DNA from: Thermococcus bergensis
GTDB lineage: Archaea > Methanobacteriota_B > Thermococci > Thermococcales > Thermococcaceae
NCBI RefSeq assembly: GCF_020386975.1
Contig: NZ_JABFNK010000005.1
Location: 744,001 to 808,000, forward strand
DNA: 64,000 nucleotides
Direction of reading: 5' to 3'
Program-made: the position numbers and the translations under genes
The notes under the pieces: model-generated
The model's input: only the letters and a program-made list of their open reading frames with translations
Told to the model about the DNA's origin: nothing
The model's database searches: none
Shown here: positions 22,656-39,673 of the stretch, piece after piece
Layout of the letters: every line of letters begins with the position of its first letter
Numbering within the stretch: the stretch's first letter is position 1

Positions 22656-23156
22656 ATGAGTTTCATTGTTTCATTTGTATGGTCGTTTGTGCTTTGGCTT
22701 GTACTCACAGCAGGTACCAAAGGAATGCTCTGGAGCACGGAAGAAGTAATCGCAGGGATTATATTCGCTGCAATCGTCGGGCTTTCAACAAAGAATATCA
22801 TAGGAGAAAAAGCTCAGAGATTCCTAAACCCAGCAAAGTGGCTTGGATTCCTAGTTTATGCCATTGGCCCCCTCTTCTGGGGGATGGTAAAGGCAAATTT
22901 TGACGTTGCTTATAGAGTAATCACCGGAAAAATAAAGCCAGGGATTGTTAGAGTACCCGTTGACCTTGAAAATGAAGCCCAATACACAATACTAAGCAAT
23001 TCAATTACCCTCACTCCTGGAACCTTGACAGTGGATGCCTGCCCAGAAGAAAAAGCCCTCTACGTCCACTGGATATACGTAAGAGACGAAGAACCAAAGA
23101 GCTCTGAACCCGTTGCAGGTTCTTTTGAAAAATGGGCAAGGAGGTTAGGGAAATGA
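22656..23156 (+). CDS. mbhA: Mbh operon 1 subunit A (MrpE-like)
   Basis: 166 residues, two N-terminal hydrophobic helices and a soluble C-terminal domain (AYRVITGKIKPGI, SITLTPGTLTVD) typical of MrpE-like subunits. It is part of the Na+/H+ antiporter-like membrane module of the ferredoxin-dependent, H2-evolving Mbh complex. The ATG at 22656 follows GAGGTGG. It is the first gene of the operon; its stop overlaps the mbhB ATG (ATGA). Confidence 0.92.
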   Translation: MSFIVSFVWSFVLWLVLTAGTKGMLWSTEEVIAGIIFAAIVGLSTKNIIGEKAQRFLNPAKWLGFLVYAIGPLFWGMVKANFDVAYRVITGKIKPGIVRVPVDLENEAQYTILSNSITLTPGTLTVDACPEEKALYVHWIYVRDEEPKSSEPVAGSFEKWARRLGK

Positions 23157-23416
23157 TTTTCACAGAGTTCTTTTACGGAGCAATAGTAATTGCTCTTGGG
23201 GCGTTCATAACTCTGATTCGTGTCATGCTTGGACCTAGTGTTCCTGACAGGGTTGTTGGTGTTGACACATTAAACACCCTTATCGTGGCCGGAATGATCC
23301 TCCTGGGAGCAGCTTATGACAGAGTAATTTACATCGATATAGCCATAGTTTATGCCTTGCTCAGTTATATTGGGACTTTGGTAATTGCTAAGTATCTCCA
23401 GGGGGGATTGGAGTGA
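23153..23416 (+). CDS. mbhB: Mbh operon 1 subunit B (MrpF-like)
   Basis: 87 residues, three hydrophobic helices, with GPSVPDRVVGVDTLNT, the family signature of MrpF. Part of the Mrp-like sodium-translocating module. The ATG is within the ATGA overlap with mbhA; the end overlaps the GTG of mbhC. Confidence 0.92.
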   Translation: MIFTEFFYGAIVIALGAFITLIRVMLGPSVPDRVVGVDTLNTLIVAGMILLGAAYDRVIYIDIAIVYALLSYIGTLVIAKYLQGGLE

Positions 23417-23778
23417 TTAAAAGCATAATTTACGTTTTTCTGGCAATCAGTATTACTTTCAACTTGCTCGGGAGCGTTTCACTTCATAGATTTCCCGATG
23501 TTTACACCAGATTACATGGCGCAACAAAGTGCACAACTTTTGGAACGATATTTGCCGTCTTGGCCGTAATTGTCCATGCAATTTGGCAAATAAAAGAAAC
23601 AGGGAATCCAAAGTATCTTCAAATGGCATTGCACAGCTTGGTTGCTCTTATAGCCTTGTTGCTTACAAACCCAACAGGAGCTCATGCAATAGCGAAAGCT
23701 GCACATTTGAGCGGATATAAACCAGCAAGGGCTGTTATTGATGCTTATGAGAAGAAGTTGAGGGGTGAAGAAGCATGA
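23413..23778 (+). CDS. mbhC: Mbh operon 1 subunit C (MrpG-like)
   Basis: 121 residues, three hydrophobic helices. MrpG hallmarks are GSVSLHRFPDVYTRLHGATKCTTFG and the later LTNPTGAHAIAKAAH, the conserved helix-2 and helix-3 segments. GTG start in a 4-bp overlap with mbhB. Part of the membrane antiporter-like module. Confidence 0.92.
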   Translation: MIKSIIYVFLAISITFNLLGSVSLHRFPDVYTRLHGATKCTTFGTIFAVLAVIVHAIWQIKETGNPKYLQMALHSLVALIALLLTNPTGAHAIAKAAHLSGYKPARAVIDAYEKKLRGEEA

Positions 23779-24041
23779 ACCCATTAACCGTTGATATGAT
23801 AATTCAAGCGGGGCTCCTCATTGGAATATTGCTTTCTTCATACTGGATGATAACCACAAGGGATTTACTTTCAGCAGCCCTAGCGTCTGCGGCTATGAGC
23901 CTCCTTCTTAGTTTGGAATTCTACATGCTTCATGCACCAGATGTTGCCATAGCGGAAGCAGCTGTTGGTGCGGGTGTTGTTACTGCAATAGTTGTTTATG
24001 GGATTTCAAAAACCGAGAGATGGGAGCGTGAGAGTCCATGA
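23775..24041 (+). CDS. mbhD: Mbh operon 1 subunit D (MrpB N-terminal/DUF4040-like)
   Basis: 88 residues with three hydrophobic helices and the conserved [15 protein letters not shown] motif (DUF4040, equivalent to a C-terminal part of MrpA). The acidic residue in this segment is thought to lie on the ion path. 4-bp overlaps on both sides. Confidence 0.9.
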   Translation: MNPLTVDMIIQAGLLIGILLSSYWMITTRDLLSAALASAAMSLLLSLEFYMLHAPDVAIAEAAVGAGVVTAIVVYGISKTERWERESP

Positions 24042-24337
24042 GAAGAACTGTCGGAGCGTTATCCTTGCTCTTCATACTCGGAATGTTGCTTTTAATTGCT
24101 CATCCAAATTACGGCCTAAAATTTGGCTTAGGCGGGGAGGACTGGCAAAAGTATCGCTATACAGACCAGTACTACATAGATCATGGCATTGAAGAAGTGG
24201 GTGGAACTAACATTGTTACTGACATAGTCTTTGATTACAGAGGATACGATACCCTTGGAGAGGCCACGGTTCTTTTCACTTCAATAGCGGGAGCAGTCGC
24301 ATTGCTTAGAAAATGGAGGGAGGAAAATGGGGAGTGA
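24038..24337 (+). CDS. mbhE: Mbh operon 1 subunit E (MrpB-like)
   Basis: 99 residues: an N-terminal helix, a loop outside the membrane, and a second helix with [18 protein letters not shown], conserved in MbhE/MrpA C-termini. It belongs to the membrane module. Overlaps mbhD by 4 bp and mbhF by 11 bp. Confidence 0.9.
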   Translation: MRRTVGALSLLFILGMLLLIAHPNYGLKFGLGGEDWQKYRYTDQYYIDHGIEEVGGTNIVTDIVFDYRGYDTLGEATVLFTSIAGAVALLRKWREENGE

Positions 24338-24773
24338 CATGGGGCTTATAGTTAAAACAATGGCAAGAGCTACTATACCTCTCATAGGGATTTTCGGAGC
24401 TTACGTTGTTGCTCATGGACATCTGACCCCCGGAGGAGGTTTCCAGGGTGGAGCCACAATTGCTGGAGCGGGAATACTATTCCTTATAGCATTTGGACTC
24501 AATGAAGCCAAGACCAGGATAAACAAGAACTTATATTCCGCCCTTGAGGGAGTAGGAGGCCTAGTTTTCTTGATAGCTGGAATGCTCGGTCTGGGTGTAG
24601 CGTTCTTCTACAACACCCTATGGCATAACGGTCCAATTTTCAATGGAGAACCAGGCACACTTCTTTCAGCAGGTTACCTTCCAATAATGAACTTGGCAGT
24701 GGGTCTGAAAGTTTACACAGGGCTGGTAAGTGCTGTCCTTGCAATGGCTCTCTTTAGGAGGTGGAGAAAGTGA
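24327..24773 (+). CDS. mbhF: Mbh operon 1 subunit F (MrpB-like)
   Basis: 148 residues, four hydrophobic helices, with the MrpB signature [15 protein letters not shown]. The ATG at 24327 has GGAGGGAGGAAA upstream, overlapping the end of mbhE. Membrane module. Confidence 0.92.
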   Translation: MGSDMGLIVKTMARATIPLIGIFGAYVVAHGHLTPGGGFQGGATIAGAGILFLIAFGLNEAKTRINKNLYSALEGVGGLVFLIAGMLGLGVAFFYNTLWHNGPIFNGEPGTLLSAGYLPIMNLAVGLKVYTGLVSAVLAMALFRRWRK

Positions 24774-25132
24774 TACCACTGCAATTTGTTACGGCATTTT
24801 TAATGATCTTCATGGGCATTTACGCGTTCTTGTACAAGAGAAACCTCATCAAATTAATCCTGGCCCTCAATTTAATTGATGCAGGCATACACCTCTTGCT
24901 GATAAGCCTCGGATATAGATTGGAAAACGGAGTTTTACCTACAGCGCCCATTTACACTGGGTATGAAACATTGAAGGGCACTCCAATGGTTGGCCCAATA
25001 CCACAGGCTTTAGTGCTCACGAGCATAGTCATTGGAGTTTGTGTGCTCTCATTGGCAATGGCATTGACGATAAACGCCTATAGACACTACGGAACCCTTG
25101 ACGTTAACAAGTTAAGGAGGTTGAGAGGATGA
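24770..25132 (+). CDS. mbhG: Mbh operon 1 subunit G (MrpC/NuoK-like)
   Basis: 120 residues, three hydrophobic helices, related to NuoK/MrpC (ALVLTSIVIGV, ALTINAYRHYGTLD). GTG at 24770 is chosen because GGAGGTGGAG precedes it and it forms a GTGA overlap with mbhF; a GTG three codons earlier lies in that ribosome binding site. Membrane module. Confidence 0.9.
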   Translation: MIPLQFVTAFLMIFMGIYAFLYKRNLIKLILALNLIDAGIHLLLISLGYRLENGVLPTAPIYTGYETLKGTPMVGPIPQALVLTSIVIGVCVLSLAMALTINAYRHYGTLDVNKLRRLRG

Positions 25133-26712
25133 CGCTCCCGTTTCTAATCATAATTCCATTATTCGGAGCATTTTCAATGCCTATCATTAGCTTATTTGGA
25201 AAGAAGCTCAAGGAATATTGGGCACTCATAATCAGCGGCGCTACACTCGGAGTTGCTGCTAAGATATTTTACACAGTATGGAAGACCAACGAAATCATCC
25301 TTTATACCCTCGGGAGCGAAAGCCCAATTGGCAAAGGAGTGAAGTTCCCAATTAGAATTGTATGGGAAGTTGACTTACTTGGAGCGCTCTTGGCTTTAAC
25401 AATAACCTTCGTGGGCTTTTTGGCAGTGCTGTATTCTCTTGGCTATATGAAGCATGACACTGGCTTGGAGAAGTACTACACATTGATACTCATTTTGGAG
25501 CTGGGAATGCTGGGAATTGTTATCACCGGGGATATCTTCAACTTCTACGTGTTCTTGGAAATAATGAGCATTGCAAGCTATGCGTTAGTTGCCTTCAGAA
25601 ACGACACATGGGAAGGAATTGAGGCAGGAATTAAGTATATGTTCGTTGGTTCATTGGCAAGTTCCTTTATTCTATTAGGCATCGCCTTGCTTTATGGTCA
25701 GTATGGAACGCTTACAATGAGCTATCTCGGCATAAAAATAGCCGAAAATCCAACACTTGTGGCAAAAGTGGCTTTGGCTTTCCTTATTGGTGGACTGCTC
25801 TTTAAGAGCGGTGCGGTTCCAGTTCACATGTGGCTTGCAGATGCACACCCAGCAGCCCCAAGTTCAATCTCCGCAATGCTTTCGGGATTAGTCATCAAGG
25901 CGGGTGGAGTTTATGCAGTGGCAAGGATAGTATTCAGCATTTTCAACCCAGGACTGCACGCTTACCTAAAAGCGTTCAACATGCCCTCAATTAACATGGA
26001 GGCAGTTGGCTGGGTTATAGTGTTCTTTGCTTGCCTGACGCTCCTCATAGGAAATGCAATGGCCGTAGTGCAGACCGACATGAAGAGGCTTTTTGCATTC
26101 TCAAGTGTGGGGCAGATAGGGTATATTCTGCTCGGAATTGGTATTGGAACCCTCGCCTATGGTAGCAGGGCAGGTGAACTAGCACTGGCTGGAGCAATAT
26201 ACCACATAGTGAACCACGCATTGATAAAGGCACTCCTCTTCTTTGTGGCAGGAGCAGTTATCCATGAAGTCGGCACGAAGAACCTTAACGAGTTGAGCGG
26301 ACTGGCAAGAAAAATGCCTATGACAACCCTTGCATTTATAATAGGTGCTGCGGCAATCATAGGTCTTCCACCATTAAACGGATTTGCTAGCAAGTGGATT
26401 ATCTATGAGAGCTCCGCTATGTACAACCCAATCTTGGCAGCTATTGCCGTCGTTGGTACAGTGTTCTCCCTAGCAGCATACACCAGGGTGCTCTTTACGT
26501 TCCTAGGCAGAGAGAGCGAAAAGGTGAAGAGTGCAAAAGAGCCAGAAATGAGCATGCTTATTCCAATGCTGATTCTAGTAGTTGCAATTGTTGTCATGGG
26601 TCTCCTTCCATGGCAGATAAACGATAAAATAATGCTCCCGACAGCAAGAATGCTTGAGCAGCTCAATGGTGAGTATATGGTCGCTCTCTTAAAATTCCTT
26701 GGAGGTGCATGA
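25129..26712 (+). CDS. mbhH: Mbh operon 1 subunit H (MrpD/NuoN-like antiporter subunit)
   Basis: 527 residues with about 14 hydrophobic helices, the large antiporter-like subunit. Seen: conserved Glu in LEIMSIASYALV, Lys and His residues in LFKSGAVPVHMWLADAHPAAP, and KALLFFVAGAVIHE. These are the proton/sodium path residues known from complex I antiporter subunits. It is coupled to the neighbours by ATGA at the 5' end. Confidence 0.94.
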   Translation: MTLPFLIIIPLFGAFSMPIISLFGKKLKEYWALIISGATLGVAAKIFYTVWKTNEIILYTLGSESPIGKGVKFPIRIVWEVDLLGALLALTITFVGFLAVLYSLGYMKHDTGLEKYYTLILILELGMLGIVITGDIFNFYVFLEIMSIASYALVAFRNDTWEGIEAGIKYMFVGSLASSFILLGIALLYGQYGTLTMSYLGIKIAENPTLVAKVALAFLIGGLLFKSGAVPVHMWLADAHPAAPSSISAMLSGLVIKAGGVYAVARIVFSIFNPGLHAYLKAFNMPSINMEAVGWVIVFFACLTLLIGNAMAVVQTDMKRLFAFSSVGQIGYILLGIGIGTLAYGSRAGELALAGAIYHIVNHALIKALLFFVAGAVIHEVGTKNLNELSGLARKMPMTTLAFIIGAAAIIGLPPLNGFASKWIIYESSAMYNPILAAIAVVGTVFSLAAYTRVLFTFLGRESEKVKSAKEPEMSMLIPMLILVVAIVVMGLLPWQINDKIMLPTARMLEQLNGEYMVALLKFLGGA

Positions 26713-26713
26713 A

Positions 26714-27061
26714 ATGTTCGGCTATTGGGATGCTCTCTATTTCCTTTATGCTTTCTTCATTGGTCTGGTGATTAGTTATTTGCTCATGAAATGGGCAGAA
26801 AAAGCCAGCACTGGCACTAGAAGGGCTGGAGAGGGAACAAAGATTTACATCAGCGGTGAGGATCAAGATAAGATTATACCTCATTTTGAGCACTTTGAGG
26901 GCTACTTTACCGGAAGGCACGTAATGTGGGGCTTAATAAGAGGAGCTCAAAGGATGTTTTTGGCATTTAGAAAGGAACACACTGGTCTGCTTACAGATTA
27001 TGTTGCATACCTCTTGCTCACTGTAGCAATAGTGCTTGGAGCGCTCGTCATCGGGGGGTGA
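26714..27061 (+). CDS. mbhI: Mbh operon 1 subunit I
   Basis: 115 residues: hydrophobic helices at both ends and a central cytoplasmic loop (GEGTKIYISGEDQDKI, GYFTGRHVMWG). In the P. furiosus Mbh structure this subunit links the membrane antiporter module and the hydrogenase module. ATG at 26714, two bases after the mbhH stop, with GGAGGTG. Confidence 0.85.
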   Translation: MFGYWDALYFLYAFFIGLVISYLLMKWAEKASTGTRRAGEGTKIYISGEDQDKIIPHFEHFEGYFTGRHVMWGLIRGAQRMFLAFRKEHTGLLTDYVAYLLLTVAIVLGALVIGG

Positions 27062-27065
27062 AGTA

Positions 27066-27536
27066 ATGAACGAGAGAGAAATGCTTGAGAAAAGAATTTC
27101 AAAACTCTGTAAGTACCTTGGAAGGTCACCGTGGGTATTTCACGTTAACAGCGGTTCATGCAATGGATGTGATATTGAAATAATAGCTGCTCTTACACCC
27201 AGGTATGACGCAGAGAGATTTGGAGTAAAGCTTGTTGGAACACCAAGACATGCAGATATCCTGTTGGTAACCGGCCCAGTTACAGATCAAAGCCTTGAAA
27301 GGGTTAAATTGATATATGAACAAACTCCGGATCCAAAAGTTGTTGTTGCTGTGGGGGCATGCCCAACTGGTGGTAGTGTGTTTTTTGAAAGTCCATTTAC
27401 TAATGCTCCCTTGGACAAACACATCCCTGTGGACGTCTTTGTTCCAGGATGCCCTCCAAGACCAGAGGCAATACTCTATGGTGTGGTTTTGGGATTGGAA
27501 AAGCTCATAAAAAAGATAGAAGGTGAGAAAGAATGA
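27066..27536 (+). CDS. mbhJ: Mbh operon 1 small [NiFe]-hydrogenase subunit J
   Basis: 156 residues, related to NuoB. It holds the cluster nearest the [NiFe] site, with cysteines in GSCNGCDIE, GACPTGG and PGCPPRPEA. Cytoplasmic and membrane-attached. The end overlaps mbhK by 4 bp. Confidence 0.95.
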   Translation: MNEREMLEKRISKLCKYLGRSPWVFHVNSGSCNGCDIEIIAALTPRYDAERFGVKLVGTPRHADILLVTGPVTDQSLERVKLIYEQTPDPKVVVAVGACPTGGSVFFESPFTNAPLDKHIPVDVFVPGCPPRPEAILYGVVLGLEKLIKKIEGEKE

Positions 27537-28054
27537 CCCCCGAAGAATTCTTGGAGATGATTCTAACAAAATTCCCTAATGCCGATGGAAAAATTAGTGA
27601 GAACAAGCTCCCCCACCCTAGGAAGAGGGTCTGGATAAATGTTGCGAGAGAAGAATTCAAAGATCTTATGAAGTTTATTAAGGAACTTGACCCCAAAGCA
27701 CAGTTTTCTATAATAATCGCCAGGGATGGAGGAGACTACTTAGAGGCTAAGTATCACCTTGAACTATTTTACGAGCAAGCTCCAAGTATCTCACTCGTAG
27801 TTGGTACTAGATGTCCCAAAGATGACCCAACACTGCCCACTATCACAGACATATTACCAAGTTCGCTCCCCTATGAAAGAGAGGTTCAAGAGTTTTTGGG
27901 AATATTCTTTGAGGGCATACCCGATCCACGGAGGCTGTTTTTACCCGATGACTTCCCAGAAGACATCTATCCTCTGAGAAAAGATGAGAAAGGTATCAGC
28001 GATGAAATGATAAAGAACGCAGGCCATCCCTACAAAATGAAAAAGGAGGGTTAA
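27533..28054 (+). CDS. mbhK: Mbh operon 1 subunit K (NuoC-like)
   Basis: 173 residues related to NuoC, with ITDILPSSLPYEREVQEFLG and RRLFLPDDFPEDIYPLR conserved. It wraps around the large subunit. Two bases separate it from mbhL. Confidence 0.93.
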   Translation: MTPEEFLEMILTKFPNADGKISENKLPHPRKRVWINVAREEFKDLMKFIKELDPKAQFSIIIARDGGDYLEAKYHLELFYEQAPSISLVVGTRCPKDDPTLPTITDILPSSLPYEREVQEFLGIFFEGIPDPRRLFLPDDFPEDIYPLRKDEKGISDEMIKNAGHPYKMKKEG

Positions 28055-28056
28055 AC

Positions 28057-29349
28057 ATGGAGAATAGAGTTGAATATTGGGTTAAAATCCCAATTGGTCC
28101 CATTCACCCGGCACTTGAAGAACCTGAAAAGTTCATCATTACCCTTGATGGAGAAAGAATAGTAAATGTTGATGTAAAGCTTGGATACAACTTGAGAGGC
28201 GTAGAATGGATTGGCATGAGAAGAAATTACATCCAGATACTTTATCTTGCTGAAAGAATGTGTGGGATATGTTCTTTCTCTCACAACTATACGTATTCTA
28301 GGGCAGTCGAAGAAATGGCTGGGATAGAGGTACCCGAAAGAGCCGAATACATAAGGGTGATAATAGGAGAATTGGAAAGAATCCACTCTCATTTGCTCAA
28401 TCTTGGAGTTGTAGGGCACGCTATAGGCTATGACACTGTTCTCCACCTAAGCTGGCTTGCCAGGGAGAGGGTTATGGATCTCCTAGAGGCAATAGGGGGC
28501 AACAGGGTAAACTACGCTATGAACACAATTGGGGGCGTGAGGAGGGATATAGAGGATAAGCACAAAAGGGCGATTCTGGAGATGATAAAATACTACCGCG
28601 AAGAAGTCATGCCAAGGATTGAGGAAATATTCCTCTATGATCCAACTGTTGAAGCTAGACTTAGGGATGCAGGGGTCATACCCAAAAGGATAGCCATTGA
28701 GTACAGCGCTCAAGGTCCAACAGCAAGAGGAAGTGGCGTTGAGAAGGATGTCAGATACAATGAACAGCTGGGGGTTTATCCGGATTTGGGGATTAAGCCA
28801 ATAACCCCTAAGGAGTTTACAGGAATAATCAAGGGGGACATGTTTGATAGGATGGTCGTTAGAGTTGGAGAACTTTGGCAGAGCATGGAGCTCATAGAAA
28901 GGGCTTTAGACCAAATGCCAGAGGGAAAAATAAAGGCATTTCCGAAGGATAACGTAACTTTGATCCGGCTTAAAAAAGCAGAAGGAGAGGGCATTGGTAG
29001 GTATGAGGCTCCAAGAGGGGAGCTCATTCACTATGTGATGGCCAACCCTGGAAGCGAAATTCCAGAAAGGTGGAAAATGAGAGAACCCACTTTTCCAAAC
29101 CTCTTTGCAGTTGCGAGAGCACTAGTAGGAGAACAGCTTGCTGATGTGCCGGTTGCAATAGCGTCAATAGATCCCTGCCTGAGCTGTACAGATAGAGTAG
29201 CCGTTATAGATGCCAAAACCGGCAAGAAAAAAGTTCTTACAGAAAAAGATCTTCTCAAGGCTTCAATTGAGAAAACAAGAGAAATAAATCCCAACATAAA
29301 GGCAAAACCAGAACCCGTTGGCGGTTCTTGTGGGGGTGTTAGGCTATGA
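28057..29349 (+). CDS. mbhL: Mbh operon 1 catalytic large [NiFe]-hydrogenase subunit L
   Basis: 430 residues. All four nickel-binding cysteines are present in RMCGICSFSH near the N-terminus and DPCLSCTDR near the C-terminus, so it should be a true H2-forming enzyme and not the sulfane reductase Mbx. The N-terminal VEYWVKIPIGPIHP is as in P. furiosus MbhL (from memory). The last residues (GGSCGGVRL) end without a long cleavable tail. It uses electrons from ferredoxin through MbhN and MbhJ. Start 28057 follows AGGAGGGT; GTTAAAC lies upstream. Confidence 0.96.
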   Translation: MENRVEYWVKIPIGPIHPALEEPEKFIITLDGERIVNVDVKLGYNLRGVEWIGMRRNYIQILYLAERMCGICSFSHNYTYSRAVEEMAGIEVPERAEYIRVIIGELERIHSHLLNLGVVGHAIGYDTVLHLSWLARERVMDLLEAIGGNRVNYAMNTIGGVRRDIEDKHKRAILEMIKYYREEVMPRIEEIFLYDPTVEARLRDAGVIPKRIAIEYSAQGPTARGSGVEKDVRYNEQLGVYPDLGIKPITPKEFTGIIKGDMFDRMVVRVGELWQSMELIERALDQMPEGKIKAFPKDNVTLIRLKKAEGEGIGRYEAPRGELIHYVMANPGSEIPERWKMREPTFPNLFAVARALVGEQLADVPVAIASIDPCLSCTDRVAVIDAKTGKKKVLTEKDLLKASIEKTREINPNIKAKPEPVGGSCGGVRL

Positions 29350-30335
29350 ACATCGTTTATTTAACTCTAGGACTAATAGCGATTTACCTTTACGTCTCCG
29401 CTGCTTCTCTCCTTTGGGAAGGAATGGATAGAAAGCTTGTTGCGAGGATGCAGAGACGTATAGGTCCTCCAGTACTCCAGCCCATTTATGACTTTCTAAA
29501 GCTCGTCAGTAAAGAGTCCATAATCCCAAGAGATGCCAATAAATTCTTTGAAATCGCTCCAGTGTTGGCTTTAGCTTCTTCAATAGCCCTCCTAGCTTAC
29601 ACTCCTCTTGGATTTGAACCCCTCTTAGCCACAAAGGGCGATGTAATAGTTTTCATATACTTACTTGCTCTCATAGCCTTTGTAAGGGTGATGGGTGCCG
29701 TTAGCTCAGGATCCCCCTATGCGCAGATAGGTGCTCAGAGAGAAATAATCATGCTTGCTTCCAGGGAAGTTCCCATGATGTTGGGACTCTTTGCAATACT
29801 CTGGCGCTTAAGCAAACTCGGAGTTGAAAAACCTTTTAGCTTGGGAACGTTTTATCAGTATAACATCTGGGAGATTGGTACTCCCTTGACAGTCTTTGGC
29901 ACATTTGTTCTCTTCATAGTGTTCCTACTCTGGCTTGCAAGTGAGATTGAAGTCGGTTACTTCAACATTCCAGAGGCAGAGACAGAAGTTGCAGAAGGTC
30001 CCATGGCGGAATACAGTGGAAGACATCTAGCACTATTTAAACTAAGCAGTGCTCTGAAAGAGTTCGCAAGTGCCAGTTTGGTCGTGGCGATCTTTTTCCC
30101 ATGGGGTATAAGTGGGTACCTTGGCTTGACAGGTATTGGGGCGGTAGTCCTTGATTTGCTCTTCCACACTCTCAAAGTATTCATAGTCCTCTTTGTTAGC
30201 ATGAGCGTATTCAGAGCAATAACTGGAAGGCTCAGGATTACCCAAGCAGTTGGCATGTTTTGGGGCAGAATACTTCCAATGAGCTTTATAGGAGTGCTGC
30301 TGATAGTCATAGACGTTCTGGGGGTGATTGCATGA
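29346..30335 (+). CDS. mbhM: Mbh operon 1 membrane subunit M (NuoH-like)
   Basis: 329 residues with about eight hydrophobic helices and the NuoH features ARMQRRIGPPVLQPIYD and EAETEVAEGPMAEYSG, whose glutamates lie in the proton/sodium link between the active site and the membrane arm. ATGA overlaps with mbhL and mbhN. Confidence 0.94.
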   Translation: MNIVYLTLGLIAIYLYVSAASLLWEGMDRKLVARMQRRIGPPVLQPIYDFLKLVSKESIIPRDANKFFEIAPVLALASSIALLAYTPLGFEPLLATKGDVIVFIYLLALIAFVRVMGAVSSGSPYAQIGAQREIIMLASREVPMMLGLFAILWRLSKLGVEKPFSLGTFYQYNIWEIGTPLTVFGTFVLFIVFLLWLASEIEVGYFNIPEAETEVAEGPMAEYSGRHLALFKLSSALKEFASASLVVAIFFPWGISGYLGLTGIGAVVLDLLFHTLKVFIVLFVSMSVFRAITGRLRITQAVGMFWGRILPMSFIGVLLIVIDVLGVIA

Positions 30336-30901
30336 AGATCCCTCCAACTCTTTCAGTAGTTCTAAAAAACATCTTCAAAAAGCCTGCAACAAACCCCTTC
30401 CCTAAGAGTGATCCTATTCCAACACCAGAAGGCTTCAGGGGAAAATTGGTTTACCATGTTGACAAGTGCATAGGATGTAAGCTCTGTGTGACAGTCTGTC
30501 CGGCGGGAGTGTTTGAATACGTGCCCGAGCTCAAAAAGGTGACACTCTGGCTGGGAAGGTGTGTCTTTTGCCAGCAGTGTGTCGATGTATGTCCAGTAAA
30601 GGCACTGGAAATGAGCAATGAGTTCCTCTTAGCGACATACGACAAATACGACGATAACCTAAGATGGCTCAAAAATGAGGAAATTGAAGAAATGCTCGCA
30701 AAGCAAGGAGGAAAAACAAAGAAATATCGCGTAATCCCGGAGAAATGTAAGGGATGTACATTATGTGCCAGGAACTGTCCACAAAATGCTATTGAAGGAG
30801 CACCAAGAGAAGTGCATAAAATTGACCCCAATAAGTGTGTTGGATGCGGAATATGTGCAACTGTATGTCGCTTTGGTGCAATAGAAGAGTACGAAGAGTG
30901 A
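30332..30901 (+). CDS. mbhN: Mbh operon 1 ferredoxin-like subunit N with extra C-terminal 2x[4Fe-4S] domain
   Basis: 189 residues, about 50 longer than the P. furiosus subunit as I recall it. Residues about 45-95 carry the usual two cluster motifs CIGCKLCVTVCP and CVFCQQCVDVCP. After a linker, residues about 138-185 hold two more: CKGCTLCARNCP and CVGCGICATVC. The second pair, with its VIPEKCKGC start, looks like the C-terminal ferredoxin domain of NuoF/HydB-type flavin subunits. The start ATG 30332 overlaps mbhM. The extra domain may be a docking or entry site for ferredoxin electrons (inference). Confidence 0.9.
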   Translation: MKIPPTLSVVLKNIFKKPATNPFPKSDPIPTPEGFRGKLVYHVDKCIGCKLCVTVCPAGVFEYVPELKKVTLWLGRCVFCQQCVDVCPVKALEMSNEFLLATYDKYDDNLRWLKNEEIEEMLAKQGGKTKKYRVIPEKCKGCTLCARNCPQNAIEGAPREVHKIDPNKCVGCGICATVCRFGAIEEYEE

Positions 30902-30932
30902 ACTTTAGTTCTTTTTTTAAATTATTTTTAAA
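30902..30932 (+). terminator. Probable archaeal T-rich terminator of hydrogenase operon 1
   Basis: Directly after the mbhN stop is a T7 run followed by a further T-rich stretch (30912-30930). Such T-runs end transcription in Thermococcales. It separates the two operons, which have their own promoter signals. Confidence 0.5.
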
Positions 30933-31171
30933 GTCTCGTCAAGTTGTTATTATAATCCCGAATATTTCTTAACATCAATGAACTTTTTTGAACTATAATG
31001 TACTTCTAAGTTCCATTTTATGTAAAGTTTTGTTACCTTTATATTTGTCAAATTACATGTTTTCAACCTTTTGTTAAAGAAACGTATTTAATGAATTTTG
31101 GACTAATAAATAATGGAATTAGCTTGAAATATGTAATCGAACGGTTTAAAGCCTAAAGCTGGGGTGAGAGA
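30933..31171 (+). promoter_or_regulatory. Promoter region of hydrogenase operon 2 with SurR-like site
   Basis: At 31059-31075 is GTTTTCAACCTTTTGTT, a full GTTn3AACn5GTT match to the extended SurR motif. Nine bases further is a TATA-like GTATTTAAT (31084-31092). Another TATA-like TTTATATTT lies upstream at 31038-31046. If the downstream box is used, the geometry is that of activation as in operon 1. If the upstream one is used, SurR would repress. No gene is seen in this gap. Confidence 0.65.
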
Positions 31172-31674
31172 ATGTCCTTTATGACATCTTTCCTGTGGTC
31201 TTTGATTGTGTACTTAATCTTGACAGCCAGCTCCGGTAGTGTTTTACTGTGGAGTCCAGCAGAACTAGTGGCTGGAATTGTAATAGCAGCTCTTATAGGA
31301 TATGCAACGAGAAACATAATGGGGGAAAGGTTCGATTACTTTTTTAACCCAAAAAGATGGGTGCTTTTCATTATATTGCTTTGGGACCGTTCTTTTATGC
31401 CATGGCAAAAGCAAATCTCGACGTTGCCTACAGAGTTATAACAGGAAAAATAAGACCTGGAATCGTGAAAATATCCCCGGGATTAACGCGAGATGAAAGC
31501 AGAACCCTTCTTGCGAACTCAATAACTCTAACTCCCGGAACGTTTACCCTAGAAATTGACGATGAAGGGAACCTATACGTGCACTGGATTAACGTTCCGC
31601 AGGGAAAAGAGAAGCCGACTCCTGAAGAACTTTGTGGATACTTACCAAAATGGGCAAGGAGGATTGCAGAATGA
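31172..31674 (+). pseudogene. Hydrogenase operon 2 subunit A (MrpE-like), frameshifted
   Basis: The gene opens normally (MSFMTSFLWSLIVYL) but the reading frame breaks at 31376-31377. The first frame ends with the stop at 31439-31441 after 89 residues. The rest of the protein (ALGPFFYAMAKANLDVAYRV to KWARRIAE) continues in the next frame to 31674. Alignment with mbhA of operon 1 places a tyrosine codon there, so exactly one base is missing. It could be a real mutation, a sequencing error or, less likely, recoding. Without the shift the product would be about 167 residues. GGGGTGAGAG precedes the start. Confidence 0.85.
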
Positions 31675-31946
31675 CACCTGAAAGTTTGTTTATGGGGGCA
31701 ATGATACTGCTCTTCCTTTCAGCCACATTAACAATGATAAGAATGCTAATCGGACCAACAATTCCTGACAGGGTTGTGGCATTGGATGCCTTAACAACCA
31801 CGACTGCCGGTGCTATGGTTCTATATGGGGTAATTACGGAGCAAGCGGTGATTATCGATGTTGCACTTGTCTATGCGGTCCTTAGCTATATCGCAACTCT
31901 GTATATAGCAAGGTACTTAGTAAAGAAGAAGGTGGGATTGGCATGA
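31671..31946 (+). CDS. Hydrogenase operon 2 subunit B (MrpF-like)
   Basis: 91 residues, three helices, with GPTIPDRVVALDALTT. Its start overlaps the stop of the frameshifted subunit A gene (ATGA), so in the mutant its translation may suffer if coupling matters. Confidence 0.9.
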   Translation: MTPESLFMGAMILLFLSATLTMIRMLIGPTIPDRVVALDALTTTTAGAMVLYGVITEQAVIIDVALVYAVLSYIATLYIARYLVKKKVGLA

Positions 31947-32299
31947 TAGAAGGAGTTTTGGCGATACTCCTTGCAATTGGGGTGGGGTTTAATCTACTGG
32001 CCAGCGTTGGGATACTGAGATTTCCTGATGTTTACACAAGAATCCACGCTTCGACAAAATGCACTACCTTTGGAACGATTTTCATAGTCTTGGCAACCGT
32101 AGTGTACTCAATTTACAGATGGCTTCCAAACCACGACGCAAGATGGATTACAATAGGAATTCACTCGGCACTTGTAGTAATATTCTTGGTGCTAACAAAT
32201 CCCGTTGGAGCTCATGCAATTGGGAGAGCAGCCCGAAAATCCGGGATAAGACCATATGGTGCGGTAATAGATGAACTGGAGGGATACTATGAACTTTGA
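31943..32299 (+). CDS. Hydrogenase operon 2 subunit C (MrpG-like)
   Basis: 118 residues with GILRFPDVYTRIHASTKCTTFG and LTNPVGAHAIGRAA, MrpG family hallmarks. 4-bp overlap with B; 11-bp overlap with the next gene. Confidence 0.9.
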   Translation: MIEGVLAILLAIGVGFNLLASVGILRFPDVYTRIHASTKCTTFGTIFIVLATVVYSIYRWLPNHDARWITIGIHSALVVIFLVLTNPVGAHAIGRAARKSGIRPYGAVIDELEGYYEL

Positions 32300-32552
32300 A
32301 AACTTTTTCTGGGTTCTACAAATCTTCATTGCGATCGCCCTAATAGGGAGCTCAATAGCCGCAATCAGGTTCAAAAACTTAATTGCCGCTGTAATAGCAA
32401 TGGCAGTCTTTAGTTTAGCTCTTTCTGTGGAGTTCTACGTTCTTCAAGCTCCGGACGTTGCTATAGCGGAAGCAGGTGTTGGAGCTGGACTTACAACGGC
32501 AATGTACCTCCTTGCCATCAAAAACACCACCGATGAGGAGGTGGTAGAATGA
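32289..32552 (+). CDS. Hydrogenase operon 2 subunit D (DUF4040/MrpB-like)
   Basis: 87 residues, three helices, [15 protein letters not shown] motif. ATG at 32289 has GGAGGGATACT upstream within the previous gene; an alternative ATG/TTG-like start at 32271 is less well placed. Confidence 0.88.
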
Positions 32553-32824
32553 GGAGAGCGCTTGGATTATTTGCGTTCTTATCGTTCATAATCTTCCTCT
32601 TGGCTGCGGCTATAAGCTTGAGACCTTTTGGAGAACCTCCCCATGCAGAGATGGACACTTACTTCATAGAGCATGCCCAAGAAGAAGCTTCAGCTAATAA
32701 CGTCGTTACCAGTGTCGTATTCGACTACAGAGGTTTTGATACTCTAGGAGAGGCAACGGTTCTTTTTACTGCAGTTTCTGGAGTTCTGATGGCTTTAAGA
32801 CACTATGGGGGGAAGGAGAGATGA
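32549..32824 (+). CDS. Hydrogenase operon 2 subunit E (MrpB-like)
   Basis: 91 residues, N-terminal helix then [18 protein letters not shown], the conserved MbhE segment. ATGA overlaps at both ends. Confidence 0.88.
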
Positions 32825-33288
32825 CAACCACAATCATAAGAACAACAACAAAAATTTTAGTGCCTCTAATACTGGTGTTTGGCTCGTATATCATTCTACA
32901 TGGTCACCTAACACCCGGCGGAGGTTTTCAAGGTGGAGCTGTATTTGCAAGCGGTTTAGCTTTGCTGATAGTTGCAAATAACAAAGAAAAAGTCAAAGAA
33001 CTCTTCAACAAGGTTCCGTTAAGCCAGTTGGAAAGTATTGGAGCTTTAGGATTTCTGGGAATTGGGGCATTAGGCTTTATGGGGTACACTTTCTTGAAAA
33101 ATGTGATCGCAAACAGCGGATTCCTCTTTGGAGCTCCAACGCCTAAAGGGATTAATCCGGGCTATCTCAACACCGGCGGAACCCTTTCGTACCTCAACAT
33201 TTTCGTAGGAACAAAGGTATTAGCTGGTCTAACGAGCATAGTCCTGATATTCTTCCTTATTCTAAGGAGGGAGAGGGATGAATGGTAG
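32821..33288 (+). CDS. Hydrogenase operon 2 subunit F (MrpB-like)
   Basis: 155 residues, four helices, with [16 protein letters not shown]. It overlaps the next gene by 11 bp. Membrane antiporter-like module. Confidence 0.9.
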
Positions 33289-33643
33289 CATTTTTGTTAA
33301 CTTCCCGTTCATCGTAGTTGCAGTGTTGCTCGCTCTTGGCTTTTACACGATTGGATTCAAGCGGAACCTCATAAAGGTTGTAATTGGCGTTGAAATTCTT
33401 GAAGGAGCAGTAAATATGTTCATTGTTGCGTTAGGTTATGTAAAAGGTGGTTACGCCCCAATTTACACGCAAGCACCGCCCGAAGCTGTAGGAAAAATGG
33501 TTTTACCAACGCCACAGGCTCTGACTCTTACGAGCATAGTCATCGGGGTTGCTGTATCTGCTCTAATGCTGGCTTTTGCCGTTAACATCTACAGACACTA
33601 TGGAACTCTCGACGTTACCAAGATAAGGAGGTTGAGAGGATGA
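33278..33643 (+). CDS. Hydrogenase operon 2 subunit G (MrpC/NuoK-like)
   Basis: 121 residues, three helices, ending AVNIYRHYGTLDVTKIRRLRG, nearly the same end as the operon 1 homologue. The start ATG follows GGAGGGAGAGGG. Confidence 0.9.
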   Translation: MNGSIFVNFPFIVVAVLLALGFYTIGFKRNLIKVVIGVEILEGAVNMFIVALGYVKGGYAPIYTQAPPEAVGKMVLPTPQALTLTSIVIGVAVSALMLAFAVNIYRHYGTLDVTKIRRLRG

Positions 33644-35193
33644 TCGAGCACTTGCCTGCCTTAATGATTGCCGTTCCTTTATTTGGGGCATTTATAGCAC
33701 CTATATTTAAGAAACACTACAAGGGAGTCTCAATATGGGCAATTATAATAACCGGCATAACTGTAATACTCTCCCTCCTGCTCGCTAAGGAAGTTGTTAC
33801 CGGGGGAATAATGGTCTACGTCTTTGGAGCGGATAAGCCGACCCTCGTGCTGCCTTCTGGTTACTCCGTACCAATAAGAATCATGTTTGAGGTAGATGCC
33901 ATGGGCGCCTTTATGGCGATATCTGCAACGCTGATGAGTTTTGTGGGAGCTTTATACTCCTACAGTCATGTAGAGAAAGAAACAGGGCTGGAAAAGTATT
34001 ATTCTTTATTAATGCTCCTTGAAGTGGGCATCCTTGGTATGGTGCTTACGGGAGATCTCTTTAATCTCTTCGTGTTCTTGGAGATAGCAGGTATAGCTGG
34101 ATCTGCACTGGTAGGATTTAGAAACTATCGTGGTGAAGCAAGCGAAGCAGGAATAAAATACCTTATTGTTAGTGCTGTAGCTTCTCTAATGGTGCTCTTT
34201 GCAATAGGTATACTCTATGGACAGTATGGAAACTTAAACCTCGCATACATAGCTAGGAATATTTCCCCTAACCTAGTTGACATGATTGCACTTGGATTGC
34301 TCTTTACGTCATTTGCAATGAAATGCGGTGCCGTTCCAATGCACTACTGGGTGCCGGATGCATACACGGAAGTTCCAGCTGGAATAAATCCACCCCTCTT
34401 GGTAGCGACTTATGCCAGCCTTTATGCTCTCTTTAGAGTGAGCTTCACTCTCTTTGCAAACATTGTAGTAGATTTGGCAAGAGTAGGGTGGATTATGTCT
34501 ATCTTGGGAGTGCTTACAATGTTCATAGGCGTTACAATGGCTCTGGTGCAGAAGGACGTTAAGAGGTTAATGAGCTACCATGCTATATCTCAGACCGGCT
34601 ATATGCTTCTTGGTGTCGGTGTTGGTTTGACAGTCTTACATGATCCTTCAAAGCTCGCTGAGTTCGGAAGAGATGCCATGGCTGGTGGAGTGTTCCACAT
34701 AATAAACCACATAATCTACAAAAGCTTACTCTTGATGACCGCTGGAGCTCTGTTCTACGTTACGGGAACGAGGAACCTTAATGAGATGGGAGGCTTGGCT
34801 AGGAAGATGCCGGTAACTACGATAAGCTTCATGGTGGGAGCTGCTGCAATATCTGGCTTGCCGCCGTTTAACGGATTTGCAAGCAAGCTTCTCATATATG
34901 AGACATCATACCGGCTTAATCCACTCTTAACAGTGTTTGCAATGGTTACCAGTGTTTTAACTCTGGCTTCGTTCGTCAAGGTATTTGCATCAGCCTTCCT
35001 TGGTCCTCCGCTTGAAAAGTTCGAGAGTACAAGAGAAGTTCCTAAGCCAATGGTAATTGCAATGATAATCCTAGCAGCGCTCTGTATAATCTTCGGTCTC
35101 TTCCCGAACTTGGTACTTGACAAGCTTGTCTATCCGGCTGTTGATGCGTTAATTAACTTTGCTCAATACCACAGCTGGGGTGGTCTGGCATGA
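33640..35193 (+). CDS. Hydrogenase operon 2 subunit H (MrpD/NuoN-like antiporter subunit)
   Basis: 517 residues, about 14 helices. Conserved residues: Glu in VFLEIAGIAGSALVG, Lys in MKCGAVPMHYWVPDAYTEVP, and KSLLLMTAGALFY. The His-Pro-rich segment differs from operon 1 (PDAYTEVPAG against ADAHPAAPSS), a sign of real divergence and not a recent duplication. Confidence 0.93.
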   Translation: MIEHLPALMIAVPLFGAFIAPIFKKHYKGVSIWAIIITGITVILSLLLAKEVVTGGIMVYVFGADKPTLVLPSGYSVPIRIMFEVDAMGAFMAISATLMSFVGALYSYSHVEKETGLEKYYSLLMLLEVGILGMVLTGDLFNLFVFLEIAGIAGSALVGFRNYRGEASEAGIKYLIVSAVASLMVLFAIGILYGQYGNLNLAYIARNISPNLVDMIALGLLFTSFAMKCGAVPMHYWVPDAYTEVPAGINPPLLVATYASLYALFRVSFTLFANIVVDLARVGWIMSILGVLTMFIGVTMALVQKDVKRLMSYHAISQTGYMLLGVGVGLTVLHDPSKLAEFGRDAMAGGVFHIINHIIYKSLLLMTAGALFYVTGTRNLNEMGGLARKMPVTTISFMVGAAAISGLPPFNGFASKLLIYETSYRLNPLLTVFAMVTSVLTLASFVKVFASAFLGPPLEKFESTREVPKPMVIAMIILAALCIIFGLFPNLVLDKLVYPAVDALINFAQYHSWGGLA

Positions 35194-35531
35194 GCTTTAC
35201 ACTTACTACCCCTTCTGGATTTTGGAACCCCATTTTATGGCTGGTATTCTTAGCCCTCTTTAGCATAATTGCTTATCTGATATACTCCAGAGGAAACCCC
35301 TCGTATAAGAAAGACACCGAACAAATAAAGCCCTATTTGAGCGGTAATCCAGAGCCTACAAAAGAAAAAGTTCAGGTAAAGGCTGGAGACATCTATTGGG
35401 GATTCATTGAGGCTTTGAAAGGATACTACAAAGTACTCCAAGCAATCCACACAGGAGACATGAGGGATTACATTTTGTGGTATCTTGGCATTGGGGCTAT
35501 AATAACATTCATACTAATTGGAGGGGTGTAG
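35190..35531 (+). CDS. Hydrogenase operon 2 subunit I
   Basis: 113 residues: helix at each end, with the central loop YKKDTEQIKPYLSGNPEPT and GDIYWGF, equivalent in position and layout to mbhI. ATGA overlap with H; 14 bases before the small subunit start. Confidence 0.8.
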   Translation: MSFTLTTPSGFWNPILWLVFLALFSIIAYLIYSRGNPSYKKDTEQIKPYLSGNPEPTKEKVQVKAGDIYWGFIEALKGYYKVLQAIHTGDMRDYILWYLGIGAIITFILIGGV

Positions 35532-35532
35532 T

Positions 35533-35979
35533 ATGGGTAAGCTGACCAATTTTAAGCGTTCTCTTTGGGTTTTTCATGCCTCAGGGGGTTCATGCAACGC
35601 TTGTGATATTGAAATAGTGGCTGTGCTTACTCCAAGATATGACGCAGAGAGGTTTGGAATAAAGCTTGTAGGCTCCCCGAGGCATGCGGATGTCTTACTT
35701 GTCACGGGAGCTATTCCAAGAGACTTTGCTGATAAGCTTAGGCGTATTTACGAACAGATGCCCGATCCAAAGGCCGTTGTTGTAATAGGAAACTGCGGAA
35801 CCACGGGAGGAGTCTTTTATGACTCTTACAACATAGCTGGACCAATAGACGAGGTAATACCCGTAGACGTCTATGTTCCAGGATGTCCTCCCAGACCAGA
35901 AGCAATAATAGACGGAATTGTAAAAGCATGGCTCAAGATTGAGAAGCTTGAAAAGGAGCTGGAGGGGAAGGAGAAATGA
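35533..35979 (+). CDS. Hydrogenase operon 2 small [NiFe]-hydrogenase subunit J
   Basis: 148 residues with the proximal-cluster cysteines in GSCNACDIE, GNCGTTGG and PGCPPRPEA. The start follows GGAGGGGTG, overlapping the end of I. Shorter at the N-terminus than operon 1 mbhJ. Confidence 0.93.
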   Translation: MGKLTNFKRSLWVFHASGGSCNACDIEIVAVLTPRYDAERFGIKLVGSPRHADVLLVTGAIPRDFADKLRRIYEQMPDPKAVVVIGNCGTTGGVFYDSYNIAGPIDEVIPVDVYVPGCPPRPEAIIDGIVKAWLKIEKLEKELEGKEK

Positions 35980-36536
35980 CACTAACCGCTGAAGAAATCC
36001 TTGAGAGGTTAAAGGAAAAACTTGGAGATGCGATATTAAACTATGAGGTAAAAGAGTACAAAATGGGTGTTAAAAGGCCTAGAACTTATCAGGAAATCTG
36101 GATGGAGATTAACAAAGATGCCTTTAGGAAAGCAATTGAGGCAATATTCGAAATAGACTATCCGCATTTACACTTTATAGCCGGAGAAGACGTTGGCGAG
36201 GTAATCAAGATGATATACTCCTTTGGAGTCTTCCACTCCCACCCATGGGGTGAAGTGAGTATAGTAATGAAGCTTGACCTCCCGAAGAGCAACCTTGTTC
36301 TCCCCACTATAACAGACCTCATGATCGGTGCAGAGACCAACGAAAGGGAAATCAGAGAAATGCTTGGCGTTGAGTTTGAGGGGCTTAAGAACAAGAGACA
36401 CCTCTTTTTACCTGACGATTGGCCTGAAGGAAAGTATCCATGGAGAAGGGATGAGTATGGGGTTGAAGATATGATTAAACACACCCATAGGAGCGTAAAA
36501 GAGATTAGGAAACAAAGGGGTGAGCAGAATGGCTAA
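35976..36536 (+). CDS. Hydrogenase operon 2 subunit K (NuoC-like)
   Basis: 186 residues, NuoC-like, with TITDLMIGAETNEREIREMLG and RHLFLPDDWPEGKYPWR. Its stop overlaps the original ATG of the large-subunit gene at 36529, so K and L were translationally coupled before the IS insertion. Confidence 0.92.
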   Translation: MTLTAEEILERLKEKLGDAILNYEVKEYKMGVKRPRTYQEIWMEINKDAFRKAIEAIFEIDYPHLHFIAGEDVGEVIKMIYSFGVFHSHPWGEVSIVMKLDLPKSNLVLPTITDLMIGAETNEREIREMLGVEFEGLKNKRHLFLPDDWPEGKYPWRRDEYGVEDMIKHTHRSVKEIRKQRGEQNG

Positions 36537-36539
36537 AAC

Positions 36540-36547
36540 AACTTATT
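36540..36547. repeat. Target-site duplication, left of IS982-type copy 1
   Basis: AACTTATT is repeated directly at 37480-37487, exactly flanking the inverted repeats. Removing the IS and one copy restores the large-subunit reading frame. Confidence 0.9.
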
Positions 36548-37479
36548 ACCCTAGTTCCCATTAGATCGTTAGAGTTATAAGCACTTAAGTCTTTTGGTTG
36601 ATTGGTGGTTGTTATGAACTTTCAGCAGGAAATCCTGATCATAAAATCCGAAATCTATCCGATAATCAGCAAACACTACCCGAAAAACACTCGCAGGGAA
36701 GTAATCAGCCTCTACGACCTGATAACCTTCGCAATACTAGCCCACCTGCACTTCGGAGGAGTTTACAAGCACGCTTACAGAGTCCTAATCGAAGAAATGA
36801 AGCTGTTCCCAAAAATCAGGTACAACAAACTAACAGAACGCTTGAACAGGCACGAAAAACTCCTGCTCCTAGCGCAGGAAGAATTATTCAAAAAACACGC
36901 CAGAGAATACGTTAGAATACTGGACTCAAAGCCCATTCAGACCAAGGAGTTGGCCAGAAAAAACAGGAAGGAGAAGAAGGGTTCTTCAGAAATCATCTCT
37001 GAAAAGCCCGCAGTTGGGTTTGTTCCCTCTAAAAAAAGTTTTACTATGGGTACAAGCTGACCTGTTACTCTGATGGAAATTTGCTGGCTTTGCTGTCCGT
37101 TGATCCGGCAAACAAGCATGATGTGAGTGTTGTCAGGGAAAAGTTCTGGGTGATTGTTGAGGAGTTTTCTGGCTGTTTTCTGTTTTTGGATAAGGGTTAC
37201 GTTAGTAGAGAACTTCAGGAGGAATTCCTGAAGTTTGGCGTTGTTTACACGCCGGTGAAGCGGGAGAATCAGGTTAGTAATCTGGAGGAGAAGAAGTTTT
37301 ACAAGTACTTGTCTGACTTTCGCAGGAGGATTGAGACTTTGTTTTCGAAGTTTTCTGAGTTTCTTCTGAGGCCGAGCAGGAGTGTTAGTTTGAGGGGGTT
37401 AGCTGTCAGGATTTTAGGGGCGATTCTGGCCGTGAATCTGGACAGATTATACAACTTCACAGATGGTGGGAACTAGGGT
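36548..37479 (+). mobile_element. IS982-family insertion sequence, copy 1 (ISPfu3-like)
   Basis: A 932-bp element bounded by the perfect 13-bp inverted repeats ACCCTAGTTCCCA / TGGGAACTAGGGT and an 8-bp target duplication. The ends starting ACCC and the transposase type match IS982, a family known in P. furiosus (ISPfu3, from memory). A second copy of identical length lies inverted at 40830-41761. The two differ at only a few positions seen in the protein, so movement was recent. Confidence 0.92.
36614..37476 (+). CDS. IS982-type transposase, split by a -1 frameshift at an A7 run
   Basis: The first frame (36614-37060, 148 residues) ends after SKKSFTMGTS. The second frame continues with FYYGYKLTCYSDGN to 37476. 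The frames meet at A7 (37031-37037) inside TCT AAA AAA AGT; slipping back one base gives a continuous transposase of about 287 residues. DDE residues: Asp in RILDSKPIQ, Asp in FLDKGYVS, Glu in RRRIETLFS. Both copies in the window have the same A7 and split, which argues for recoding or RNA polymerase slippage rather than two decays. Its stop overlaps the new hydrogenase start at 37463. Confidence 0.85.
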
Positions 37480-37487
37480 AACTTATT
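37480..37487. repeat. Target-site duplication, right of IS982-type copy 1
   Basis: AACTTATT, the same 8 bases as at 36540-36547. The hydrogenase coding sequence resumes here (Thr-Tyr-Tyr-Val-Pro). Confidence 0.9.
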
Positions 37488-38703
37488 ATGTTCCCGTTGG
37501 TCCAATTCATCCAGCATTAAAAGAACCGATAAGAGTAGAGGCGGAGGTTGAGGGAGAGAAGATAGTGAAGGTTGATGTTAAGAGGGGCTTTGCTCATAGA
37601 GGAATTGAGTACATGGGGATGAAAAGGAATGCAATACAAACTTTGTACCTCTCGGAAAGAATATGTGGAATATGCTCGATATCTCACCCGTATGCATTCG
37701 TCATTGGCAGCGAAAAGGCTTTAGGCATTGAGGCTCCTCCAAGGGCTCAATACATAAGAACAATAATAGCCGAGCTTGAAAGAATTCACTCGCACATCCT
37801 CTGGCTCGGAGTTATAGCGCACGAGATAGGCTTTGATCCGCTCCTCTTCTGGACGTGGAAGGGGAGGGAAAAGGTTCTCGACATTCTCGAGGCTATAACG
37901 GGTAACAGAATAAACTACGCAATGTACATGATCGGAGGAGTTAGAAGAGACCTCAAAGAGAGCCACATTAAAGCTTTGCGGGACATGATAACCTATTACT
38001 GGGAGTTCACGGAACACATGAAGGAGGTCTTCTTGTCTGATCCGGTTTATAAGGCGAGGACGAGGGGGGTAGCACAGCTCTCAAAGGAGATGGCGTTGAA
38101 GCTCAACGTGGTTGGACCAGTAGCTAGGGCTGCAGGAATTAGAATGGACGTTAGGCAGGATATTCCCTATGATGCATATGCGGATATGGATGTTAAAGCA
38201 ATTGTTCCTCAAGACATAGTGGGGGAAGCAAGGGGAGATGCTTACGATATCACAATGGTGAGGCTTTACGAGATTGAGCAGAGCCTGGATATAATAGAAT
38301 TCTGCCTTGACAACCTTCCAGAAGGAAAGATACTTGCAATTCCAAACTACGTAGCATTGCTTAACAAGATCAAAAAAACCGAGGGAGAAGCTATTGGAGC
38401 ACATGAAGCTCCAAGAGGAGAGGTTATCCACTATCTCAAGTACGATGGAACTAGAGATGGTCCTGCAGTATGGAAGGTCATAGCGCCGAGTTACAACAAC
38501 ATAAACTCCTGGGCTCTATTGCTGCTTGGGGCAGAGGTGGCAGATATTCCAGTGGTTGTGGCATACATAGACCCATGTATGTGCTGCAACGATAGGGTGG
38601 CGGTTGTGGAGGATTCAAGCGGCAGGCTTCTGGACTATTCTTATCTGCACAAGAAAGCCGTAGAAAAAACCAGAAAACTTGAAAAAGAGCTGGGGGTGAG
38701 GAG

Positions 38704-39672: not shown

Positions 39673-39673
39673 A

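Follow-up and report, generated by a model that had tools for sequence, protein, structure and literature searches.

Results

The mbh1 and mbh2 operons

Within the window, the whole 64,000-nucleotide stretch of Thermococcus bergensis DNA analysed here, two operons lie in tandem on the forward strand. Operon 1 (22659-30901) is mbh1, whose large subunit matches MbhL (6cfw_L) with an E-value of 1.3e-202. Operon 2 follows directly; its first gene (mbh2A, 31172-31674) is split into two frames, 31172-31441 and 31357-31674, by a 1-nt deletion near 31376, and homology searches and translations identify the rest of the operon, from 31677 to 40132, as that of an Mrp-Mbh-type hydrogenase, with an insertion sequence in the start of mbh2L. 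The large subunit of operon 2 (37463-38707) is closest to MbhL (6cfw_L, E-value 2.2e-118, vs 1.7e-43 for MbsL, 6u8y_L), and its translation contains both CxxC motifs, CGIC and CMCC, the two motifs that hold the nickel in the large subunit of hydrogenases. The first subunit, compared through the intact orthologue of genome G077, gave 2.3e-54 against 6cfw_A and 1.1e-22 against 6u8y_A. Searches of the large subunit against NCBIfam returned general complex I and hydrogenase families only, all of them below the cut-offs. Since both subunits prefer the hydrogenase, operon 1 is mbh1 and an MbsA-like gene is found elsewhere in the genome (L015; Pfam MNHE), the sequence comparisons identify operon 2 as mbh2, a second Mrp-Mbh [NiFe]-hydrogenase operon in tandem behind mbh1. 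An assignment of operon 2 as mbx/mbs was rejected, as its large subunit is far nearer to MbhL than to MbsL. Published descriptions of T. barophilus (PMC12162507), T. aciditolerans (PMC12401011) and Palaeococcus pacificus likewise place an mbh1 and an mbh2 cluster next to each other.

The mbh2A deletion is shared with G081, the sister of the window's genome (one mismatch over the 746 bases compared), and a sequencing slip in one assembly can thus be dismissed. The insertion sequence of about 0.93 kb (36540-37489) lies in the first codons of mbh2L, supplies an in-frame ATG and is absent from G081; it encodes a transposase split over two frames, of which the second holds a DDE domain, is flanked by a 9-10 bp target duplication and has a near-identical copy on the minus strand at 40833-41707. 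The dN/dS between the window's genome and G077 ranges from 0.01 to 0.14 over 15 mbh2 segments and from 0.02 to 0.09 over six mbh1 genes, values for mbh2 that are not those of a decaying operon; being low despite the frameshift and the insertion sequence, they indicate that mbh2 is still constrained or that the damage is recent. The mbh2N gene of G077 (L088) is 86% identical to that of the window over the aligned part and, unlike the other subunits, has an elevated dN, perhaps owing to a local frameshift or a replacement.

A conserved SurR motif upstream of mbh2

The original prediction placed a SurR-type site, GTTn3AACn5GTT, at 31059-31075 in front of operon 2, and these letters are exact (GTTTTCAACCTTTTGTT, forward strand). 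The window contains two matches to the pattern with 0.69 expected, a number reached in 12 of 100 shuffles, and the genome contains 28 with 13 for a reversed control pattern. These match counts alone prove little; it is the conservation upstream of mbh2A that places the motif beyond chance. From 40 further genomes of the same family we collected the region that follows mbhM and found mbh2A in 37 of these regions (not in those of G074, G091 and G015; the mbh2A of G091 begins at a contig end and its upstream sequence is unreadable), which together with the window gave 38 aligned promoters. G064 and G093 were added later to give 40 promoters, the alignment, matrix scores and arm counts referring to the 38 only. 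As all come from one family, the 40 promoters do not represent 40 independent events, and clustering of the aligned 38 at 90% identity leaves an effective number of about 18. Genome G074 has mbh1, and neither mbh2M nor mbh2A was found in it; of the genomes in the window's genus that are more complete, it is the sole such case.

The long motif is exact in all 38 aligned promoters and in 39 of the 40 mbh2A upstream regions, the window included, and in each of the 39 it begins 112 to 114 bases ahead of the start codon (-112 to -114); G093, the single exception, has one mismatch, GTG for GTT. Five bases ahead of the first GTT there is a degenerate left half-site, AAT (31051-31053, forward strand), which extends the motif to AAYn5GTTn3AACn5GTT (31051-31075), a form present in 36/38 aligned promoters. 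The genome has this four-half-site pattern at four separate places and its reversed control at none: the mbh2 promoter, surR, beside hypF and ahead of a 382-aa gene (L013), gene contexts that were assigned by reading translations. The L013 site (G000:C5:157163-157187) is a perfect palindrome, AACn5GTTn3AACn5GTT, followed at 22-bp spacing by a strong TATA box of 12.5 bits.

A probable single promoter behind the motif

For scoring core promoters we used a BRE/TATA matrix that was seeded from a hand-entered BRE/TATA consensus and trained on 94 promoters of this genome, drawn from the window and from ten further stretches of 20 kb, the mbh2 promoter being outside the training set. The TATA-like box that had been proposed downstream of the motif, at 31084, proved to be real: a BRE, GAAACG (31079-31084), with its GAAA invariant in the 38 genomes, and a TATA box, TATTTAAT (31085-31092), both on the forward strand, together score 7.8 bits. 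The best scores of shuffled promoters have their 90th percentile at 6.9 and their 95th at 8.2, which makes the box only fair on score alone; yet it reaches at least 4 bits in all 38 aligned genomes, and the TATA box always starts 9 bp past the motif. A conserved GAGGTG-type block ahead of the ATG (31161-31168, forward strand) is the ribosome-binding site of mbh2A. Passages from papers on transcription starts in T. kodakarensis and T. onnurineus contained none for the mbh2 promoter.

A second TATA-like box had been proposed upstream of the motif, at 31038. The letters CTTTATATTT are present at 31037-31046, but the box scores 1.8 bits, less than the 2.7 bits that the best hit in shuffled 130-bp promoters reaches in the median, and the homologous position has at least 4 bits in 9 and less than zero in 23 of the 38 genomes. 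What is conserved here is a TTT at 31038-31040 (its third T in 94%) and an invariant TTTGTC at 31044-31049, and not the TATA letters between, as 31041-31043 vary. Given a score under the shuffled median and such poor conservation, we do not regard the box as a credible conserved TATA, and the second promoter that had been proposed is probably not real, although a weak start in the window's genome itself is conceivable. The box falls in a conserved block, TTTnTnTTTGTC (31038-31049), which in the 38 mbh2 promoters is preceded by another conserved block, TATGTAAAG-like (31019-31027), both read on the forward strand, and its TTTGTC part is conserved like the SurR site. A genome-wide count of TTTGTCAAAT gave 12 occurrences, with 4 for the reversed control; outside the mbh2 promoter, just one of the 11 others lies less than 150 bp from a SurR core, at a distance of 134 bp and inside a coding frame, which gives no indication of a second regulon. 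On these sequence grounds there is a real, conserved SurR-type site in what would be an activating position before a single operon 2 promoter, the one most likely to drive a second hydrogenase, not a sulfur reductase.

A further SurR core at -28 in most relatives

The comparison of the 40 promoters revealed a second core, missed by the original prediction. GTTn3AAC is found at -28 from the start codon in 35 of the 38 aligned promoters, and in 37 of 40 with the two added genomes; in its long form the site is present in 28/38 and 30/40, respectively. Its middle three bases vary (TAA, TAG, CAA) and GTT and AAC are constant. The core is altered to GTTTAAAGC in the window, where it forms a degenerate site at 31144-31152 on the forward strand, and in G081, and to GTTTAGAGC in G083. 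The same element could itself be read as a promoter with the TATA box GTTTAAAA and a near-leaderless start, in which case SurR bound there would overlap the TATA box; for many of the 38 genomes it is the top BRE/TATA hit, with scores of up to 12.8 bits, and in the window it scores 6.1 bits. However, a conserved ribosome-binding site lies behind the element, and G001 and G038 carry GTTCAAAAC, in which the SurR core is kept and the TATA likeness is ruined (-4.5 and 0.2 bits). Because the variation in these two genomes spoils the TATA likeness while keeping GTT and AAC, we read the -28 element as a SurR site and find it very unlikely that it serves as the promoter.

Spacing between SurR cores and TATA boxes

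At mbh2 the distance from the centre of the core to the start of the TATA box is 22 bp, and at surR it is 23 bp. In the ten promoters picked first, 6 of 16 cores lie at 22 or 23 bp (mbh2, surR, hypF, an nfn-like gene, a NuoE-like gene and L013), a pile-up that on any two neighbouring registers has a probability of 0.015 in 5000 simulations. This set omitted four of the 13 listed promoters (NSR-like, L011, DUF192 and trxR) and added hypF; when the analysis was repeated with all 14, 11 of 22 cores lay at 22-23 bp and none of the 5000 simulations was as concentrated, with the qualification that cores sharing a promoter are not independent of one another and that the set includes genes thought to be repressed. 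Three of the 11 matches are measured to TATA boxes of low score (surR 2.5, NSR-like -6.0 and trxR -2.7 bits), and at hypF the 22-bp core is the neighbour of the four-half-site core. The spacing differs at mbh1, with 10 bp, and at mbs, with 25 bp. The mbh1 long motif (22508-22524) is in the opposite orientation, and its 10 bp are counted from the centre of the core to the best TATA-like box that follows it. The 22-23 bp spacing offers a testable rule for SurR activation.

SurR and the transcription of mbh2

The genome encodes an intact SurR (L026), which matches PF0095 (2qlz) in phmmer with an E-value of 1.4e-97, carries the CxxC redox motif as CTEC and has a PF0095-like C-terminal domain and an ArsR-type HTH; a pdo-like gene is transcribed divergently from surR. 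PF0095 is the protein named SurR (PMC6981617). The published work used here comprises passages of PMC12162507, PMC12401011, PMC4247193, PMC5316973, PMC6981617 and PMC8595942. SurR is described as activating from sites upstream of the TATA box and repressing from downstream ones, and surR as being activated by its own product (PMC12162507). At mbh2 the motif is in the promoter and upstream of the core elements (motif end 31075, BRE from 31079, TATA from 31085).

Most of the reported mutant data are in line with activation. Disruption of surR in T. aciditolerans brought mbhL2 to 0.76, 0.40, 0.28 and 0.25 of wild type in four conditions (PMC12401011, Table 2), and in the surR mutant of T. barophilus the target genes, all but mbs and surR, were lower at 0.1 MPa and the target genes were also lower at 40 MPa with sulfur (PMC12162507). 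Against activation, mbhII rose threefold in the T. barophilus mutant at 70 MPa with sulfur, and sulfur at 0.5 g/L still lowered mbhII in this partial mutant (PMC12162507), which suggests that some of the response to sulfur may be independent of SurR; furthermore, mbhL2 of wild-type T. aciditolerans hardly responds to sulfur (PMC12401011). For Palaeococcus, MBH2 is slightly down with sulfur according to the text of the report, with no obvious change in its table. The balance of the evidence favours activation, together with a repressive side under some conditions.

Discussion

Taken together, we consider it reasonably probable that reduced SurR activates mbh2 through the site at 31051-31075 and the single BRE/TATA at 31079-31092. 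What is observed directly is the site and the promoter, the distance between them, which is constant across relatives, the identity of the operon and the intact surR gene, and the redox rule and the mutant phenotypes come from the literature. In the absence of elemental sulfur, reduced SurR would bind 31051-31075, 22 bp upstream as counted from the core centre to the TATA start, and would help to recruit the transcription machinery to the BRE/TATA, switching mbh2 on from a start predicted at about 31108-31115; in the presence of sulfur, SurR would be oxidised and leave the DNA, and mbh2 would drop to its basal level. We infer SurR binding and the direction of its effect in the window's genome from the recurrence of the 22-bp spacing at SurR sites and from the lower level of mbh2 mRNA in most conditions upon surR disruption in two other species.

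The opposite sign of control deserves consideration, since SurR, as summarised in one paper, represses mbs from a motif that overlaps the BRE/TATA, so that occlusion remains a rival. SurR bound at 31059-31075 would then keep TFB and TBP from the promoter at 31085 and mbh2 would be induced by sulfur, as might be expected from a motif just 3 bases away from the BRE and from the threefold rise of mbhII at 70 MPa. The spacing at mbh2, however, is within 1 bp of that at the self-activated surR gene, mbh2 mRNA is mostly lower in the surR mutants of two species (PMC12162507, PMC12401011), and the textual account of Palaeococcus MBH2, if not its table, runs the other way; we regard repression from this site as unlikely. 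The site would matter little if mbh2 were transcribed mostly by read-through from mbh1, and the two operons are indeed on one strand and only 270 bp apart. Yet mbh2 is preceded by a full conserved promoter with a ribosome-binding site, a T-rich run (30912-30929) follows the mbhN stop, and mbhL2 transcripts in T. aciditolerans are reported to be tenfold below those of mbhL1 and mbsL (PMC12401011), which makes predominant read-through very improbable.

The arrangement originally envisaged was a switch in which one SurR site blocks an upstream promoter (TATA at 31038, start at about 31065, under the motif) and activates the downstream one (TATA at 31085). The part of it that stands is a SurR-type site directly upstream of a BRE/TATA, at a 22-23 bp spacing that recurs at surR, hypF and other sites, and activation from this downstream promoter, which agrees with most of the published mbh2 data from surR mutants. 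Repression from an upstream promoter, and with it the switch of two promoters around one site, does not stand: a functional upstream core promoter is not apparent in the sequence. The TATA-like letters in the window and the nine genomes with a passable box speak for it, but the box of the window falls short of the median for shuffled sequence, the position scores below zero in most genomes although the neighbouring TTTGTC is invariant, and a second promoter would need to be peculiar to a few genomes. We therefore hold a switch of this kind to be highly improbable.

Any dual control of mbh2 is more likely to run through the -28 core, and the relatives may possess a dual-site switch that has been simplified in the window's genome. 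In a speculative elaboration of SurR activation, which as a whole we think rather doubtful, the -113 site would activate from upstream of the promoter in most relatives and the -28 site, at about +30 to +37 from the predicted start, would act as a roadblock in the early transcribed region. Transcription of mbh2 would be off with SurR fully oxidised and off again with both sites filled, and would be on only at partial reduction of SurR, when the capacity of mbh1 is exceeded. The roadblock would have been broken in the lineage of the window and, it seems independently, in G083, leaving a plain SurR-activated mbh2, and the invariant TTTGTC beside the activator site would be the putative site of a second regulator. 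If this two-site reading were true, one thiol-switch regulator would give different outputs in adjacent hydrogenase operons according to the fraction that is reduced. It would also provide a simple reason for observations reported for T. aciditolerans, in which mbh2 looks transcriptionally silent in the wild type and increases strongly upon disruption of mbh1 or mbs; alternatively, the rise in the mbh1 mutant could reflect read-through from the adjacent inserted cassette.

Comparison with known SurR-controlled promoters

A two-site layout before mbh2 is already published as a table row for Mrp-Mbh2 of T. barophilus (PMC12162507, Table 2), in which two long motifs on the gene's strand are placed at 96 and 11 bp upstream of the start codon; once the 17-bp motif is added, these distances correspond to -113 and -28. 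As in the window, mbh1 and mbh2 are adjacent in T. barophilus (PMC12162507), but the window's genome retains the -113 site alone, its -28 core being degenerate. The portions of the literature searched do not describe a mechanism in which two sites control mbh2; two-site speculation has been published for mbh1 of T. aciditolerans.

The promoter of the self-activated surR gene resembles that of mbh2 in its four-half-site motif and in its nearly equal spacing (23 vs 22 bp), and differs in that it serves a regulator gene with a divergent pdo, has an extra short core further upstream and has a TATA box of 2.5 bits. The SurR-repressed mbs/mbx promoter (L015) has, like mbh2, a long motif upstream and a core downstream in this genome, whereas its motif is in the opposite orientation, the distance to the TATA box is 25 bp and the downstream core is intact.
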